The notes below the pieces were generated by a model. The model saw only the letters and a list, made by a program, of their open reading frames with translations. It did no database searches and was not told the origin of the DNA. From a virus, in IMG/VR virus record IMGVR_UViG_3300025000_000174, positions 1 through 45,300 of that record: a stretch of DNA of 45,300 nt. One strand, given 5' to 3'. Shown one piece after another: positions 2,020 to 35,974 of this stretch. The position numbers were made by a program, and so were the translations under genes. How positions within the stretch are numbered: position 1 is the first letter of the stretch; each line of letters opens with the position of its first letter.

Positions 2020-4470
2020 TCAGCCCCACACGTACAAGGTTATGGTGTCTTCGGCCAGATTCACCTCCGCACCGACGATACGCATGTATTTGGATGAGTT
2101 GTAGTTGAAGCGGTTGGTGGCGAGCTTGACCACCTTGTTGCGGGACCAGATGTGGGCGAGATCGTTAGGGTTATCGTTATGACGAAATATGTAGGTATTT
2201 TCTGTCGCGGTTCCGCTTTGCCCACCAATAACATATATGGAACTAGATGACATAACTACTGAATGCAATGATCGTATTGTCGGTAAATCAGAAATGCCTG
2301 CATCGTCCCATGAGCTGTTGGGACGACTAAGATTTAATCGAACTACTGATGAAGAAGAAGTCTCTCCATCCACTGATCCTCCAATCATGTATAGGTAAGG
2401 GGCATAAATACAGGAAGTTTTGCCACCTTGGTTAAATCGGGTAGCCGGCAAATCCGTTACTCCCGCATCATCCCATACACCAGTGGGATTGCTTAAATCT
2501 AGCCTGATGACACTGTTCAACGCTGTTACTCCGGTTTTACCACCCGATATGTATACATAATTTTCGTAAACATCCGCATTATGCATTGTTCGGGTAGCCG
2601 GCAAATCCGTCACGCCAGCATCATCCCATGCACCAGTGGGGTTGCTTAAATCTAACCTGATGACGGATGCGGTTGGAGCAGAACCTCCAGAAGTAAAGCC
2701 GCCGAATACATACAGATGATCATTGTAAATACAGGATGCATGGAGGTTTGCCTCTCTAGGCATATCGGTAACTCCCGCATCATCCCATACACCAGTGGGG
2801 TTGCTTAAATCTAGCCTGATGACGGAGCTTTTGTTGTATCCACCTACAACATATAGATATCCGTTATGAACGTGGGCAGAATGTTGATACCGGGTAGCCG
2901 GCAAATCCGTTACACCCGCATCATCCCATGCGCCAGTGGGATTATTTAAATCTAACCTGATTACAGATGCGGTCGGAGCGCTTAAGTATCCACCGATAAC
3001 GTATAAAAAATTGCCATGGACCACCGTCGCAGTTTTTGTCCGGCGAACAGATAAATCAGAAATAGCCTCATTATCCCAGTATCCGGCCACATCATAGAGC
3101 AGCTGGGTTCGCGGCACTGTGACCTTCAGATAATCCCGCCGCGTTCCGAACAGGACCTGCAGTCGTTCAGCTTCAGTTTTCGCCGCGGCTGCATCAACCA
3201 TCGGCGTATTGACATTGAGCTCTGACGCCAGAAGGTGCGCAGTCTTTACCGTTGCATCGGGGGCCGTGACAGTCCGGTACTGTTGGTTTAACCATTGCCG
3301 ACGGGCATCAGTAACGCCGGCAGCGAGATCGCTGGTCTGTACGGTGTCGTTCTTGGCGTAATTGAGGTTGACCTGCCACACCGGGACTCCGCGCCCCGTA
3401 TCGTTGGTGGCAAGACGTTCCATTCCAAGGATTTTGGAATCGTCTATGGTCGTGATCGCCGTGGTGCCGGGAAGTTCTAAACGTCGGATGCAGAACTTGC
3501 CCATATTCTCGAAGCCGTACCAGGCATCAGGGGAACACAGTTCATCGAGCACCGCGGCATAGGTGGTTTCAGTGGAAATGTAGATACCGACCTCGGCAGC
3601 ATTCGCCTTATCGAGATCAATAAATCCTTGTTCAATGCAGTCTGAGGCCGCTATTGGTATCTGCACGATCTGCTTGATGATTTGCGCTTTGGTACGGTTA
3701 GCTGCTGCCGCACCCTGGACGCCATCGGCAGTCACCTGGCCGGCCGGGGAGCTACCGAGACGGAAACAGCCGCCAGCGAGCCACGCCCGATATGTTCCAG
3801 CAGCCGGAGCGTTCGTCTCCATATCGGTCTGATCGGTGTAGTCGGTGCCCTTGCTCAGGGCTACACCCCTGTCATACACGTTGGGGATATCGTTTAAGGC
3901 GATATCCGACATCTGGTAAATCAGGCGGGACGTGTTGACAAGAACCGGCGTAACGTTATAACGGACGCCATACAGTCGTGGCTTCGGCTTGCCCTTTATA
4001 TCCTCAACGCCTTCAAGGCCGGCGGGGAGGGTATTGTTACCGAGGTACTTTGTCGGCTGAAACGGTACGTCCAGTTCGGCCTTGCGGTCACGAATCCGGA
4101 TCGATACCTGGTCGAGAGACGGCAGCGGTTGCTCCATGGTGCCGATCAAAAACGGGGCCAGACCATTCGGGGTGATCTCGGCGGCAATGATCTCTCTGCC
4201 GTCCAGACCGTAATCGATCAGATAATCGAGCTGGCCGATGTTGTTGATGAGGATGATGGCTCCGTACCCGGTGGACGCCGGTCCACTCAATTTCCCGTTC
4301 GAATACATCTGGAAAGTGAACACTCCGGGATTTTCCAGCAACGGCTCGTAATACTGATTAGCCGGGGCGTCGGCAGGACCGGAGGTGTAGCCGTTGGTGG
4401 AGAAATAGAGCGTTACCTCGGAGGCCGTGCCGGGATCATACGCCTTTATGATGACCGCGTACTCTGCCAT
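2020..4470 (-). CDS. Tail-tip/hub protein with an inserted six-repeat Kelch propeller
   Basis: The 816-aa protein starts at an ATG overlapping the tape-measure stop (TAATG). Residues 1-464 look like a tail-hub scaffold (IRIRDRKAELDVPFQPTKYLG, then a PRLYGVRYNVTPVL segment). Residues 465-770 hold six Kelch-like repeats of about 47-56 residues, each with WDDAGV(T/S)DLP, a Y(V/M)xGG turn and SVIRLDLSNPTG. Residues 771-816 (HIWSRNKVVKLA... to TLYVWG) resume a segment that fits the end of the hub domain, so the propeller looks like an insertion in a loop. Kelch propellers bind proteins or glycans, making a receptor-binding role plausible. The Kelch DNA is visibly more AT-rich than the flanks, suggesting separate acquisition. 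Confidence 0.82.
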   Translation of the reverse strand: MAEYAVIIKAYDPGTASEVTLYFSTNGYTSGPADAPANQYYEPLLENPGVFTFQMYSNGKLSGPASTGYGAIILINNIGQLDYLIDYGLDGREIIAAEITPNGLAPFLIGTMEQPLPSLDQVSIRIRDRKAELDVPFQPTKYLGNNTLPAGLEGVEDIKGKPKPRLYGVRYNVTPVLVNTSRLIYQMSDIALNDIPNVYDRGVALSKGTDYTDQTDMETNAPAAGTYRAWLAGGCFRLGSSPAGQVTADGVQGAAAANRTKAQIIKQIVQIPIAASDCIEQGFIDLDKANAAEVGIYISTETTYAAVLDELCSPDAWYGFENMGKFCIRRLELPGTTAITTIDDSKILGMERLATNDTGRGVPVWQVNLNYAKNDTVQTSDLAAGVTDARRQWLNQQYRTVTAPDATVKTAHLLASELNVNTPMVDAAAAKTEAERLQVLFGTRRDYLKVTVPRTQLLYDVAGYWDNEAISDLSVRRTKTATVVHGNFLYVIGGYLSAPTASVIRLDLNNPTGAWDDAGVTDLPATRYQHSAHVHNGYLYVVGGYNKSSVIRLDLSNPTGVWDDAGVTDMPREANLHASCIYNDHLYVFGGFTSGGSAPTASVIRLDLSNPTGAWDDAGVTDLPATRTMHNADVYENYVYISGGKTGVTALNSVIRLDLSNPTGVWDDAGVTDLPATRFNQGGKTSCIYAPYLYMIGGSVDGETSSSSVVRLNLSRPNSSWDDAGISDLPTIRSLHSVVMSSSSIYVIGGQSGTATENTYIFRHNDNPNDLAHIWSRNKVVKLATNRFNYNSSKYMRIVGAEVNLAEDTITLYVWG
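2283..3090 (-). repeat. DNA repeats encoding the Kelch blades
   Basis: Four copies of an approximately 65-74 bp block are nearly identical: 2439-2511, 2591-2664, 2761-2824 and 2891-2964. Diverged copies lie near 2283-2345 and 3047-3085. Spacing is about 130-170 bp. They encode the LDLSNPTG-(A/V)WDDAGVTDLPATR junctions, while the sequence between them varies. Such conserved ends with variable middles could recombine to gain, lose or swap blades. Confidence 0.85.
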
Positions 4471-7400
4471 TATGCCGCGTTCTCCAGGATCGCCTTGGTT
4501 TGTGCCCCGGCAAGCCGAGCTTCAACTGCTGCCAGTTTCGCAATCAGTTGCCGGTTCGCCTCGCCCTGGAGGCGAACCAGGGCGCGGAGTTCGGTGACCG
4601 CGTTTTTCAGTTCGGCGACGGTTTCTCCATTATCGCCGGCAATAGCTGCCCGGGTTTCAGTGGCGGTGTAGACCCTCCCAGGAGCACTAAAGTTAACGAG
4701 TTCAGGTCCTTCCTCTCCCACCAGTGCCCATCCCGGGAGGGCAAACCCACCGACTGCGTATTGCGGCACAAAGGTACGACTATTTATTCCAGCCAGGGCA
4801 GCTTCGTAGATTGAGCGAGCGTATTCCTCCATCTTAGAAATATAGACGTCCGTGTGCCTGTGCAGGAACAGGACCACGTCGTTAGCATCTACTATGCCGT
4901 TCGGATTGGGTTGGTAGCTTATATTGTCAACCACAGGGGCAATGTCGTATCTCGCGTCATACTGACCGCTGTTGCTCAACTGCTGGGCTTTAACCGCGTC
5001 ATCCATCGAAGACTGTGCCTGAGATTGGATGGTCGCCAGGGCCTGTTCGTAGGTCTGCTTTGCATTTAGGATGTCAGTAGCCTTCTGCTGCTCGAACAGC
5101 GCCCGCTCCTGAGCTTCCTGCTGTGCCCGGAGCACTGCCAGCCTTGCTTCCGCATCGGCCTGCAGGTACTGCTCTAACAGCACGGTCACGCCGGAGTTTT
5201 CGCCGAGAATGCCCTTGAGGTAAGAAGCGCTCTCGATATTGCCATCCACGATCGATTCCTGGATCTTCTTCAGGTTCTCCAGCTGCTGCTGGGCCACATC
5301 GATCTGGATCTGTGTGTCGCTCGGCAGTCCACCGAGGAGGGCCAGGGCCTGGGTGACTTCGGCGAAGTCGGACGCGTAGCCGGGGCCGCTGGCGTTGTAG
5401 GAACGGGAGGACTGCAGGAACGTCTGGGCCAGGGCGCTGACCTGTTGCATGGCGTCCACGTCCCCCAGCTTCGCCCGACCAAAGGTGGCGCGGAACGCTG
5501 AACCGCTCTGTTGATATTTCGCTTCCGGAGAGAGGGTGGAAAGGTCCCCGCCGAGCACGTTCTTCAGCGTCTCCATGATATTGATCTGGGCAGCAACGGC
5601 GGCGGATAGCTTGTCACGGAGGTTATCGGCGGCAATGGTCAGTTCGGTGCTCGCCTGGCTCAATGTTTCAGCAGCCTCCTTTGCCGCCTCCGCGTATTCC
5701 AGTTGCTGCACCTGGAGGAGCTTTGACGTGTCGAGGCCGCGTCTTACATAATCCTCATATTCATCCTGCTGCTGGTTGACGAGATCGAGCAGATCAGCCA
5801 TGGTGCCCTTGCCGGTGACGCGCAGGTACCGGCTTTCTATATCGCGAGTGGATTCGCGCTGCTGCTCGGCAAGCTCTGCCGTATAATCCTGCACCAGGGC
5901 GAACGCTTCGGATACGTCCATCAGGGAAGCAAAGAGTGCCCGGCCGCGTTCGGTGGAGAGGTTCAGGGAATCAACGATAGAGATGAAACCCGCCTTTGTG
6001 GCGGGCACGGAGAGGTTCATCTCGGCAAAAGCAACACTGACCTCACGGGCGGCTGCTGCGGCACGCCTGCGTTCTTGTTCCTCGTCGCTGAACATGGATT
6101 CGAAATAGGTTGCAACACTGTCCTGCATATTCTCCAGGCCGCCCATGAGTTCAACCAACTGGTAGGCGGCGTTGGCGCCTCGCAAGGTCGAATCGATCAG
6201 CCTGGCGCCGATCATATCGAGGTTTTCATTCACGCCCTGGAGCGAGGTTGCCAACCTGATAGCGGAATTGAACGCCGATTCCCCATAAAAAGTGAACTGC
6301 TCAAGACCCTGCACCGTTTGGCCGATTGCATCCGCGGCTTTCGTGTACCACGCTTCCAGGTCCTTGGCGATATCCTCGGCGCTGCGTCCGGATGTCTGGA
6401 TCTTGGTTGCCGGCAAGTTCGCTGCTGAAATGTCGGCGGTTGTACCCATGGCAACGGCGGAACGGATGACAGTGGCGATAATCTTCTGAAGGTCGGCGTC
6501 GAGGCTGTCGGTGACGCCTGAATCGACTCCGAAATAATTGGTGCCGCTCTTGCCACTGCGGAACAGTCCGCCTTTACGTGCCCAATCGCGGTAGCCCATG
6601 GCATCCAGCTGCCCACCCTCGATGCCGAGCGAGAGGCCGAGCCCGGTTTCATGGGTGCCGCCGCCAAACAAACCGCGCGTGACAGGATCGAAGGCCATCG
6701 CCATCTTCCAGCCGCCGGACCAGCTGCTAAATAGTTGCTTGGCGCTGGCGGATGGATCGATCAGCGTGTTAGCAGAGACGGAATTGCGCTCTATGGCCGA
6801 TGACGGTAAAGTTCCGGCGACCATTGAGCCACGGGTACCTTCCCCAAACAAATCGGCGATACTCGTAAGCCCATCGGCAACCCGACCAATGGCAAGGCTG
6901 GCGTTATCGGCTGCAGCAGCCAACTGCTGGAGGGAGTCTTGTGTCTGAGTGTCGTGAATGGATCGTGTGGGACCGCCGATGGAGGAACCTACCGAGCCAC
7001 TACCCCCAGTGCCAGATATATATCCGGCGGAGACACCGCCTACCGAACCGCCGCCGCCGTAATTGGTGGATGCGATCTTGGCTACCTGCCAAGCACCCAT
7101 TAATCCGACCGCCACAGCTCTACCCCATGCTGCCGGCGTCCAGCCGTCTGGGCCAGCCGTTTGGGCCATTACCGAGGCTGCAGTATTCATTACGGCCGAA
7201 CCCATAGCAAACAACTTACTGGACTCAAAGCCGCTTCGTGAGCTTGTGTCCATTGCATTAGCCATCTGACCAAGAATGTCACTATAAAATCCAAGGCTAT
7301 CTCGCCATAGCGACCATTTGATGTTCGCCGTATCCCGAGTTTCATTTATGTCGAGCTGATTGAGGGTCTTAATGGCTTTAATCTGCTCGCTGCTGCCCTC

Positions 7401-28686: not shown

Positions 28687-29316
28687 GGGAGCTCCTATTT
28701 AGTCGCGGGGACCGGTGACCTGGGACCGGTGATCGGTGAACCCGCTAGCGGGGGAGGCGACTGCAGTCCGCACTCCCCCTTTCTGGGGTTTTTTAAGTCA
28801 TGGGAGGGGGGAGACTGTTCTCCCCCCTCTTGCCGGCCCATATTCCTCCGGCCTGGTACTGCGAACGTGTGGCCCCGGTTACAGCGCTTACATCATGGGA
28901 TTGAGGCTTCCCGCTGCTCGAGCCTCGACAGACCTAACCGGTTTTTGCGGCCTCTTGGGGTGTCAAAGTTAGTGTGGCGGCCCCGGGGAGACGAGTCCCG
29001 GGACCGCCGGTGCAAAGGAGAAATGCATGACACGCTGGGGACTATACAGGGGGGTGGGTGATTTGATCAGTTGAAAGGATTCAATAAAAAAGCCCCTCTC
29101 CCGTTGGGGGAGAAGGGCTTGTGGCAATTTGTGGAACTTATACCGGGTTGTAGGGAAATGTCAATGGTTTGTCGTTTAAAGGCCGTTTAACGGGGGTGTG
29201 CATTCGGTCGGGACTCGGGATTCGGGATTCGCTAAATCCGGTTTTTAACAGGGATGGACAGGATGAGCAGGATAACTGCCGCCTGACCGGGCAAGCCGGT
29301 CAGCTTTGTGTTAGAC
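28687..29316. other. Hairpin-rich gene-free region between middle and late genes
   Basis: No sizeable gene is supported. Seen here: a heptamer-type array (28705-28740); CCCGCTAGCGGG (28741-28752); CCCC/GGGG followed by TTTTTT on plus (about 28773-28791); a perfect 10-bp stem AGGGGGGAGA/TCTCCCCCCT (28805-28828); a GCGGCCCCGGGG-type stem (about 28977-29008); a 15-codon plus-strand ORF with AAAGGAG near 29018-29072; the terminator at 29084-29119; a GTTTAAAGG motif and array at 29172-29232. The Mor-driven late promoter is expected in this interval, but no site can be named. Confidence 0.6.
29084..29119 (-). terminator. Rho-independent terminator ending the early/middle transcript
   Basis: On the minus strand the stem AGCCCTTCTCCC/GGGAGAGGGGCT with an AACG-type loop is followed by TTTTTTATT. 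It lies downstream of the last middle gene, so it should separate early/middle transcription from the late operon. Confidence 0.78.
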
Positions 29317-29700
29317 CTACACCCCGTAGCTCAGGCACTCGTTGCACATACACGGACCATCGTAATCTTCGGGGTGCTCCGATTCGTTCATCGTCCGGTT
29401 GAAAAGTTCCGCCCGTTCATGTTCCCCGTGCGCTTCAAGCTCTTTCCACTCTTCAGCGGTGAGCGGTGGCATATCTTTGATTTCGTCTAGGGCATCAGCC
29501 ATCGCAAGGTATTCGCTGGATTCCTGTACCCATCCTGTTCCAGGGGTAGGAAATCCATCATGGGAGCAGGTCACAATAAGCACCTGTGAATCTTTGTTTG
29601 CCGCGACCCATTCACGGACAGAAGCCGTAAGATCATCACCAATGGGGTATCCAATTCGCGGGCACTTCCCCGGTCTGACAACAATAAAAAGTGTTTTCAT
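29317..29700 (-). CDS. Hypothetical accessory protein
   Basis: The 127-aa product starts MKTLFIVVRPGKCPRIGYPI after GGAGGGG. It has LTASVREWVAANKDSQVLIVTCSHDG (an alpha-beta pattern) and an acidic C-terminal half (LTAEEWKELEAHGEHERAEL) ending CMCNECLSYGV, a possible metal or redox Cys group. It is the last gene before the terminator and the least conserved-looking part of the phage. Function is not recognised. Confidence 0.62.
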   Translation of the reverse strand: MKTLFIVVRPGKCPRIGYPIGDDLTASVREWVAANKDSQVLIVTCSHDGFPTPGTGWVQESSEYLAMADALDEIKDMPPLTAEEWKELEAHGEHERAELFNRTMNESEHPEDYDGPCMCNECLSYGV

Positions 29701-29758: not shown

Positions 29759-30055
29759 TTATAGCTCTACAGCCAGTGATCCGCTTTCAAATGCCGCGAT
29801 TTCCATTTCACCAAGAAATCGAATCAAAGGGGTATTCCCCACCTCATCTTCGATCATCATTTCTCTGATAACGTCCTCGCAGAATTCATTGGGGTCTGTG
29901 ATCTTCCGCCCGTGGAGAGCGCCAAGTTCATCACCGGTTGAGCACTCTGCCAGCCGCTTAACTCCGATCCGGATGACGAGCTGTTCGTCCTCAATCTTTA
30001 TTTGCAGAGGGTGATCGGCCATAACCATACGTTCGTTCTGTTTCGCTTCGCTCAC
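29759..30055 (-). CDS. Hypothetical accessory protein
   Basis: GTG 30055 follows AAAGGAG with a good gap; the upstream codons belong to a hairpin. The 98-aa product has MADHPLQIKIEDEQLVIRIG, then LAECSTGDELGALHGRKITDPNEFCEDVIREMMIEDEVGNTPLIRF and ends in FESGSLAVEL. It is acidic, probably cytoplasmic and alpha/beta. It lies just outside the inverted-repeat cassette. Confidence 0.62.
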   Translation of the reverse strand: MSEAKQNERMVMADHPLQIKIEDEQLVIRIGVKRLAECSTGDELGALHGRKITDPNEFCEDVIREMMIEDEVGNTPLIRFLGEMEIAAFESGSLAVEL

Positions 30056-30069
30056 AGCACAACTCCTTT

Positions 30070-30110
30070 CGTTCCTCATTCGCCGCGCTACGCTCGTCGA
30101 ATGAGGAACG
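30070..30110. repeat. 13-bp perfect stem-loop beside a ribosome site
   Basis: CGTTCCTCATTCG (30070-30082) and its inverse (30098-30110) flank a 15-nt loop. On the minus strand this hairpin ends next to the AAAGGAG of the 29759-30055 gene and overlaps the outer repeat of the adjacent cassette. It could affect translation, or mark an insertion scar. Confidence 0.75.
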
Positions 30111-31449
30111 GGGCGGCGGATGAGCGGCTAAGGTTGATTCAGTATTGCTATGGGCCTTTCAGGCCCAAAAGGCTTTAAACCCGCGCAAAGTCAAAACCCT
30201 AGAACCATTTGCAGTGGTTCCGCCGTATCAGCCACATCATCTTCCCATCCGACTCCAATGTAAGTAAGTACTTCGCCCCATCCCATGTCATACATCCAAA
30301 AACGCCACTCCTTGTAATTCGAATCCCTCAATCTGTCGAACCTGTGGGGCCTTTTCTCGATATGTATTCCGAAGCCGCACATGTTGCAGCCGGTACGCTT
30401 CGCCTTCGTGGTTTCCAGTGTGCCGTCAGGCTGTTCTTTAATCTCGCCGTAAATCTCTGGGACTGGCACTTCCAGTTCCAGGGCCAGACGGAGAAGATCG
30501 TCACGCTGAAAAATGGCGAACGGGCAGGATCTCTGCACGGTTTTCCCATAGTAGTTGCAGCCATTTTTTACTAGGGCATACCGCCGCTGTCCCCCCTCGC
30601 TGGCCATCAGTCCCATAAACGGTTTCAGCTTGTTGGCCTTAGCCCAATCATCGGCGGGCTTTTCCTTCATGTGGTAGCAGCATTCCGCCGAGACCTTGAA
30701 CGGTGCCGTCTGATAATTTGTTCCGTACTTCTCGTTTTCCGGTCCGCCAAACAGATTTAGCCATTTCTGCGGCAGACGCATCCGAGATCCGGTCTCTTTG
30801 GTTTTCCATCCGCCATATGCCCCGGTTTCGCCAGTAATGATCGCGTGCCGCACCGTGGCGTTCTTCTCTGTCGGGTTTTGCAGGAGGTGAATCTTACTGG
30901 CTTTCTCCTTGCTAATTACCGGGTATCCGCATTCCTTAACCACCTGAACCATGCTCTTGTACGGTTTCAGTAGCTCCATGTTCGGGAGGCTCTGGTGTAT
31001 CCGCTGAATGCTTTTGTCCTCCAGGGTCGAAACCGAGACACCAACAATGTCAGCACTTACGAACTTGCGGAGCAAAGTAATCAACACGAGGCTGTCCAGT
31101 CCACCAACTGAGCAGAACACTTGTCCCTTCATTTCCTCGTAAAACTCCTTGGCTTTGCAGATGGCCCATGTTTTTTTTCACGTCGTATGGCAGGGCTTGC
31201 AGTTCCATGAACTTCTTTGGGTCCATAGTCAAAATCCTTTATGGCCTTCGGCCAGCGCGGGTTTAAAACCAAAAGGCCCGCAATACTGAATCAACCCCAA
31301 CGTCCTGTTGTTCGTTGCTTCCGCCCTCAACTCCGATCTCGTTCATTGAAGGAGAATTGCATTTCACTTCGTCACCCGCGCGACGATGCGGAACCAACGG
31401 ATCGAGTCAGTCCCCCGCAAGCGGGGGGCCGCTCATCCGCCGCCCCGTT
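30107..31449. repeat. Cassette bounded by nested inverted repeats
   Basis: Outer repeat: 22 bp at 30107-30128 is the exact inverse of 31428-31449. Middle repeat: GGTTGATTCAGTATTGC at 30132-30148 is inverted at 31280-31296. Inner repeat: TTTAAACCCGCGC at 30174-30186 is inverted at 31255-31267. All three flank the PAPS-reductase-like gene. The right arm has about 130 extra bases between middle and outer repeats, including CCCCCGCAAGCGGGGG. The outer repeat on the right abuts the stop codon of the next gene. No transposase lies inside. Confidence 0.9.
30191..31226 (-). pseudogene. PAPS-reductase/DndC-like protein, frameshifted at an A8 run
   Basis: The first frame runs from ATG 31226 (MDPKKFMELQALPYDVK). 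At an A8 run (31171-31178) removal of one A would join it to KTWAICKAKEFYEEMKGQV and the long open frame ending at 30191, about 345 aa. The second part has the PP-loop CSVGGLDSLV, then a CCYHMKEKPADDW pair of Cys, RSCPF and TGCNMCGFG, suggesting an Fe-S or zinc site. This matches the ATP-pyrophosphatase/PAPS-reductase superfamily, which includes sulfur-transfer enzymes (CysH, DndC). Substrate unknown. The shift may be a mutation, polymerase slippage or a read error. It sits inside the inverted-repeat cassette. Confidence 0.72.
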
Positions 31450-31681
31450 ATGGCAATACGACCCGGCAGTCTGTTACCCACGATTGCCCTGCCAGATATT
31501 TCCGCCAGTCGAACCAGACATTGCGTCGCCGATTAAGGATGATTTCGGGACCGTCTGGCATGTCTTTGACGAGCGCAACGCGGTACGGTTCCACTCGATC
31601 CGCTGTGATGGTGCCCTGAATTAGCACCAAGTCACCCTTTCTCGGGCACTCGCTACCGGGTGTCATTTTGACTATCTGCAT
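31448..31681 (-). CDS. Small hypothetical protein
   Basis: ATG 31681 follows GGAGGTGCC. The 77-aa product MQIVKMTPGSECPRKGDLVLIQGTITADRVEPYR... ends QSWVTDCRVVLP. The strand pattern with KGDLVLIQG and ILNRRRNVWFDWRKYL suggests a small SH3-like or beta-barrel fold. The stop codon overlaps the outer cassette repeat. No family assigned. Confidence 0.65.
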   Translation of the reverse strand: MQIVKMTPGSECPRKGDLVLIQGTITADRVEPYRVALVKDMPDGPEIILNRRRNVWFDWRKYLAGQSWVTDCRVVLP

Positions 31682-35863: not shown

Positions 35864-35918
35864 CGTGTTCCTCCTGGCTGCATCATCAGGCCCCGGGCGC
35901 CACCCCGGGGCGACGGCG

Positions 35919-35957
35919 GTACATAAAATCGTGTACAAAACACATAATTTTATGTAC
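35919..35957. promoter_or_regulatory. AT-rich inverted repeat, possible operator or promoter
   Basis: GTACATAAAAT (35919-35929) and its inverse (35947-35957) are separated by 17 bp that carry a smaller GTGT/ACAC pair. It is an AT-rich island just downstream of the 35975-36244 gene and before the next start. It could be an internal regulator site for the distal early genes. Confidence 0.55.
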
Positions 35958-35974
35958 TCGCCGTTTCGCATGGG

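Follow-up and report, generated by a model that had tools for sequence, protein, structure and literature searches.

What are three nested inverted repeats doing around a single gene in a phage genome? The question is raised by the IMG/VR virus record IMGVR_UViG_3300025000_000174, the whole of which (45.3 kb) is called the window here, and in which a gene resembling phosphoadenosine phosphosulfate (PAPS) reductases is enclosed by three concentric pairs of repeats. A sequence-only reading of this DNA had taken the arrangement for a mobile cargo cassette, perhaps moved in trans. From comparison of the locus with its relatives it is concluded to be a non-autonomous integron-associated element, that is, either an unusual cassette or an attC-targeting element that uses the same insertion point. 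The copies share one fold, carry exchangeable cargo, have dispersed recently and end at the integron crossover.

The outer repeat (30107-30128 and 31428-31449) is perfect over 22 bp and the middle one (30132-30148 and 31280-31296) over 17 bp, while the third (30171-30186 and 31255-31270) is complementary at 15 of 16 positions. When the window is searched for exact inverted repeats of at least 16 bp with arms 100-1600 nt apart, only the 22-bp and 17-bp pairs are found; random sequences from a dinucleotide model give a mean of 0.1 16-mer pairs of such spacing. The two exact repeats around one gene had thus been described correctly by the sequence-only reading, and its remark that no transposase lies within the cassette agrees with the open reading frames (ORFs) inside the element. 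The third repeat had been given as 13 bp; it is present, but extends over 16 positions of which 15 are paired. The element itself, which lies among small ORFs on the minus strand, reaches beyond 30107, through an extra hairpin, to 30072, and is flanked by ..CCATAA on the left and by C.. (30071) on the right. Its parts are the following.

30072..31447, minus strand: whole element, 1376 nt, with AA^C boundaries as in 13 complete copies; the joined flanks restore an attC site
31428..31449, minus strand: P1, 5' arm, including the AAC core triplet (31447-31449); perfect complement of 30107-30128, also present in the copies L032, L033 and L062
30107..30128, minus strand: P1, 3' arm, with the GTT core triplet at its end; pairs with the 5' arm
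31412..31427, minus strand: P2 hairpin CCCCCGCTTGCGGGGG, from folding and comparison
31388..31399, minus strand: P3, 5' arm CGTTGGTTCCGC; pairs with 31313-31324, both sides changed in L033 and L062
31313..31324, minus strand: P3, 3' arm GCGGAAGCAACG; pairs with 31388-31399
31280..31296, minus strand: outer P4, 5' arm; 17-bp perfect complement of 30132-30148, pairing kept and sequence changed in L032, L033 and L062
30132..30148, minus strand: outer P4, 3' arm; pairs with 31280-31296
31255..31270, minus strand: inner, second P4-like helix, 5' arm (the third repeat); 15/16 complementary to 30171-30186
30171..30186, minus strand: inner, second P4-like helix, 3' arm; pairs with 31255-31270
30071..30110, minus strand: Y hairpin GTTCCTCATTCG..CGAATGAGGAAC, right end of the element; found in all five right ends, arms changing in step

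Four complete cargo-bearing copies (the window, L032, L033 and L062) were aligned and folded, and they adopt the arrangement P1-P2-P3-P4-P1'-Y with the gene in the loop of P4. The helix table was made by hand from few sequences and is descriptive, with no statistical test. P1 is a perfect stem of 22-23 bp in all four copies; it has an invariant core of 17 bp, a single two-sided change in L033 and one extra pair in L062. P4 measures 17, 18, 19 and 21 pairs across the copies and is fully paired (with one G-T), although its sequence is different in each. P2, P3 and Y likewise show changes on both sides between copies. In the window the third repeat appears to be an additional, inner P4 that resembles the P4 of L032. 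Judged from these alignments, the inverted repeats are the paired helices of a conserved fold and not terminal repeats of the transposase type. In every copy, for example L198 (1472-1604), an element-specific sequence after GTTC, such as TTCTCCCC, is shared by the 5' arms of P3 and Y; the loops of attC sites in these arrays also contain the Y loop GAGCGNAGCG.

The ends of the element are equally constant. Integron integrases cross over at G^TT, that is, AA^C on the bottom strand (PMC2727003), and this crossover marks both ends of all 13 complete copies from phages and chromosomes, which start after AA and finish GAA|C. In 10 of the 13 the right junction is immediately followed by an attC hairpin. 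For nine of these ten the hairpin has p <0.01, as judged by simple base shuffles (about 200 per site), while the tenth, in the window, rests on the restored R'' and R' boxes. The remaining three comprise L195 and L197, with weak hairpins (p 0.06 and 0.04), and L062, which has a stem without GTT. When the element is removed from the window and its flanks are joined (GCCATAAC...GTTATGGC), R'' and R' match over 8 bp, against 3 bp in the occupied site; such an 8-bp match occurs in 3 of 710 AAC..GTT pairs of similar spacing on the minus strand of the window. The flanks of L032 join to ATAACGGCTTGAG.., with which intact attC sites in L046 and L062 also begin. L195 adjoins a divergent ORF whose N-terminal domain is that of a tyrosine recombinase and which is truncated by the end of the contig; the position of L195 would fit that of a cassette at attI. 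The array around the window element can be described as follows.

30019..30073, minus strand: interrupted attC, R' box GTTATGG at 30019-30025; 8-bp GCCATAAC/GTTATGGC complementarity on joining the flanks
31447-31453, minus strand: R'' box of the interrupted attC, CCATAAC, across the element from the R' box
31451..31681, minus strand: upstream cassette ORF, 77 aa, stop codon inside the R'' box (ORF list and sequence)
29762..30022, minus strand: downstream cassette ORF, 87 aa, start codon inside the R' box; 90% identical relative in L032
29713..29765, minus strand: second attC of the array, R' GTTAGACC
29320..29700, minus strand: third cassette ORF, 127 aa (ORF list)
29270..29317, minus strand: third attC-like site, R'' GGTCTAAC, R' GTTATCC (sequence and fold)

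The same structure is found with other genes. Scans of viral and genome collections were made with exact patterns, by which divergent copies can be missed. In IMG/VR the outer repeat flanks different genes in L032 and L033, whereas L046 holds a right end only and L052 the 22 bp only; one scan of genomes gave the prophage copy L062, in a Deltaproteobacteria metagenome-assembled genome. The cargo varies by copy and consists of the PAPS-like gene in the window and elsewhere of two small ORFs, a Lar-like pair or an 84-aa phage gene. Conversely, the repeats are found beside none of the 28 viral-contig relatives of the PAPS-like gene, and a relative of the L062 cargo occurs in L090, a locus without repeats. 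Since relatives of the genes occur without the repeats and the repeats enclose other cargo, gene and vehicle are separable; the repeats are part of the vehicle, in which the PAPS-like gene travels as a passenger. The sequence-only reading had proposed to look for the repeats around other genes, and they do surround unrelated cargo in L032, L033 and L062. It had also held that its idea would fall if relatives always carried the gene without these repeats; this is the case for the gene in its 28 viral relatives, but the repeats are found around other cargo.

The possibility that the repeats are part of conserved genes was rejected: the 17-mer core does occur in coding DNA of unrelated contigs, yet within IMG/VR the context of the element is seen only in L032, L033, L046 and L052. 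Among 80 loci of the integron integrase IntI in phages, the element is present only in the already known records G002 and G003. Phage and plasmid collections gave no match in searches of the left end of the window element against phages, its right end against plasmids and the 133-nt form described below against both. The right end in L046 keeps just the P1' arm and the Y hairpin, and a dnaN-like (sliding clamp) frame stops right at it (6830-7060 of the reverse complement). The record holding L046 (G003) also encodes a reverse-transcriptase domain, RVT_1, at C1:16391-16975 on the minus strand, distant from the element.

Relatives without any ORF are found in bacterial chromosomes. When 395 genomes of the phylum to which the prophage host belongs were searched with a covariance model of the right end (R1), multi-copy matches were obtained in G321 and G388 and single matches in G416 and others. 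These ORF-less relatives are 122-133 nt long and fold as P1-P2-P3-P1'-Y, lacking both P4 and a gene. Five copies of 133 nt in three genomes are identical at 132-133 of 133 positions and have different flanks, and two 129-nt copies within one genome are identical. ORFs neighbouring them in the chromosomal arrays encode BrnA-type antitoxin, PIN and RelE-like proteins, which are common integron cargo. Model matches at L165 and L166 were judged unrelated by eye, and those at L069 and L070 are chance matches. A related ORF-less copy, L205 (G442 C31:6812-6876), ends GAAT and not GAAC, and its right flank is without an evident attC. L172 (G231 C200:40949-41050) has a short P1-like inverted pair (AACGGAGACGGCGGATGATCGG) and no ORF, lies near toxin-antitoxin-like genes, and is possibly a further divergent relative.

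In an ordinary integron cassette the attC site comes after the gene. The present element differs in that its gene is enclosed by the folded structure, and a version without an ORF has become dispersed, as near-identical copies, at precise crossover points. Integrons and cassette clusters borne by phages have been described previously (Qi et al., 2023, PMC9892861), and IntI above the curated cut-off is encoded in three of the six element-bearing records, namely those of L033 and L046 and the L062 prophage. In L033/L054 (15519-16460 of the record) and in L062 (6230-7201) the IntI gene occupies the array's 3' end and is co-oriented with the cassettes. The usual position of IntI is 5' of the array and divergent from it.

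The explanation towards which we lean, with the balance moderately on its side, is that the window element belongs to a family of non-autonomous folded-DNA elements residing in integron cassette arrays, those of phages included, and served by IntI in trans; mobilisation by IntI in trans is itself likely. One DNA strand folds into P1-P2-P3-(P4)-P1'-Y, and IntI from the host or another phage would act in trans on the folded strand at AA^C, inserting the element at that point just as it inserts gene cassettes. Once the element is excised as a circle, P1 and Y are predicted to merge across the core triplet into a single continuous duplex of 31 bp. The phage form has the extra arm P4 between P3 and P1', with a captured phage gene in its loop. 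A bolder and more tentative proposal, which we regard as possible but rather doubtful, is that these elements constitute a new class: self-folding single-stranded "dumbbells" that exploit integron integrases through the core triplet, spread as ORF-less units of 122-133 nt and gained a gene-capturing arm in phages. If IntI does move the element, it would be a second kind of folded integron substrate, and it would provide a route by which phage genes become mobile cassettes, linking phage and bacterial integrons.

Several observations weigh against the involvement of IntI. P1 is without the extrahelical bases and the unpaired central spacer of a canonical attC, and so is no standard attC site; the family therefore fails one defining feature of a standard cassette. 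The records of the window, L032 and L052 yielded no IntI. Phage arrays carry the element on the R'' side, whereas in chromosomal arrays the neighbouring ORFs mostly run such that it is on the R' side; the R''-side placement gives the cargo ORF the same direction as the phage genes. The AA at the junctions forms a short direct repeat, and the point could equally serve other recombinases. Neither movement nor a circle nor a natural empty site has been observed, and a search for an empty site based on the upstream cassette gave only a 10-residue match.

The main rival is an attC-targeting transposase. The element would then be derived, in the manner of a miniature inverted-repeat transposable element (MITE), from an attC-targeting insertion sequence of the IS1111-attC type or from one using another recombinase, inserting at the same AA^C point with the transposase supplied in trans. 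The several identical 133-nt copies resemble a recently active MITE, and the lack of attC-type extrahelical bases in P1 also speaks for this reading. All ends nevertheless fall exactly on the published IntI cut, and one copy adjoins an ORF with a tyrosine-recombinase domain and not an attC. No autonomous copy bearing a transposase was found, though IS110-family genes were not searched for, and none of the five phage records contains a Y1 transposase; the L062 genome has two such genes elsewhere. On balance an insertion-sequence origin is considered unlikely. Less probable still is that the fold acts in the transcript as a structured RNA (such as a ribozyme, an element resembling group II introns, or a leader controlling the cargo gene) whose association with integrons is secondary. 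Two-sided helix changes and cargo placed in a terminal loop, as are intron-borne ORFs, would suit an RNA, and Group IIC-attC introns are indeed known to insert at the attC R'' box (PMC7923331). Against this, the element region has no Rfam match at E up to 1, the window has no group II intron at the gathering score, and the records of the window, L032 and L033 have no reverse transcriptase (RVT_1). The precision of the junctions at the integron cut and the dispersed 133-nt form without an ORF are, moreover, facts at the level of DNA.

The sequence-only reading comes closest to a further explanation, in which the cargo is carried by a transposon-like cassette bounded by terminal inverted repeats and mobilised in trans by a transposase, the phage's own Mu transposase being one candidate. 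Inverted repeats do enclose one gene, and the window phage does encode a Mu transposase and a MuB-like ATPase. Among the records tested, however, the Mu transposase domain occurs only in that of the window, and G002-G005 have terminases of the GpA type; the element-bearing phages are thus of different types, which disfavours the Mu enzyme. Terminal repeats of the transposon type are also unsupported because the arms change in step, the outer repeat stops short of the right end and insertion takes place at the integron crossover in attC sites. This explanation is consequently held to be very improbable. What survives of the reading is a cargo unit without a recombinase of its own, carrying other cargo elsewhere and probably moving in trans. 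It is barely conceivable that there is no element at all, only chance repeats and the ordinary stem-loops of attC sites in a cassette array. The attC sites of the window do fold into hairpins, but dinucleotide-matched random sequences rarely yield such repeats, and the fold recurs both with other cargo and as identical dispersed copies; chance was ruled out on these grounds.

The passenger gene lies in the P4 loop.

30191..31226, minus strand: PAPS/adenosine phosphosulfate (APS) reductase-like gene, frame broken at 31171-31178; PHROG 424, comparison with the relatives L004 and L005

It matches PHROG 424 "phosphoadenosine phosphosulfate reductase" (E 1.5e-19), and the best solved match of its AlphaFold model (mean predicted local distance difference test score 77) found by Foldseek is the assimilatory APS reductase 2goy, of the CysH type (E 3.7e-3, template modelling score 0.42/0.60). 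Both results support an assignment to the PAPS/APS reductase (CysH) family. The alignment retains the PP-loop SVGGLDS and the cysteines CC..C..C. The Pfam family PF01507 (PAPS_reduct) gave no match to the window protein, and the relatives score below its cut-off. An extra A in a run of eight (T8 on the plus strand, 31171-31178) causes a +1 frameshift that leaves the first codons out of frame with the rest, while L004 and L005 read through at this position. The window copy may be a frameshifted pseudogene, be read by slippage or be mis-sequenced. It had been suggested that the product modifies DNA or thiols. A role in sulfur or thiol chemistry is plausible from the sequence and the model; modification of DNA is not supported in view of the CysH-type fold, the frameshift and the PADLOC result, since among the proteins submitted to PADLOC (the cargo, its relative and a set of neighbours) the sole match was a sub-threshold one of a neighbour to PglX. 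A function like that of DndC in DNA phosphorothioation was rejected on the same PADLOC and fold results.

Two further features of the window lie apart from the element. A type II hammerhead ribozyme at 35872-35971 on the minus strand scores 56.4 bits, above the Rfam gathering score, and its catalytic core looks intact; it is located in the early region of this Mu-like phage. A predicted protein at 2020-4470 (minus strand), near the tape-measure gene, contains a run of near-identical Kelch-like repeats (VIRLDLSNPTG.WDDAGVTDLPATR).

Among known systems, assimilatory APS/PAPS reductases (CysH) resemble the cargo in PHROG family, best solved fold, PP-loop and cysteine set, but differ in that PF01507 does not match the window protein and its relatives remain below the cut-off. 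For the element itself the closest counterparts are integron gene cassettes, including ORF-less ones and those of phage-borne arrays (PMC9892861). They share with it the location in arrays, the AA^C ends, the attC neighbours and the presence of IntI in several element-bearing records. In the element, though, recombination sites do not flank the cargo ORF, which is placed inside the fold; P1 is branched, perfectly paired and free of extrahelical bases; and the phage elements sit at R'' and not R'. Insertion sequences of the IS1111-attC type (ISKpn4 and ISPst6; cited in PMC11187229), which are characterised by a DEDD transposase and sub-terminal inverted repeats, also insert site-specifically at one attC end; in the copies of the element no transposase ORF was seen, the cargo is variable, and the ends consist of a stem and an outer hairpin. 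Group IIC-attC introns share insertion at attC R'' and a structured body with an ORF in a loop, but the element has neither a reverse transcriptase nor an Rfam intron match, and their junction is TTGT/T, against AA^C with AA on both sides in the element. Repetitive extragenic palindromic (REP) sequences, their hairpin-forming pairs (REPINs) and MITEs are, like the ORF-less form, short, palindromic, multi-copy and non-coding. Unlike REPs and REPINs, the element has no transposase of the RAYT type (Y1) in the phage records, and it is set apart from all of these by its position at integron crossover points and by the genes that its phage lineage carries.
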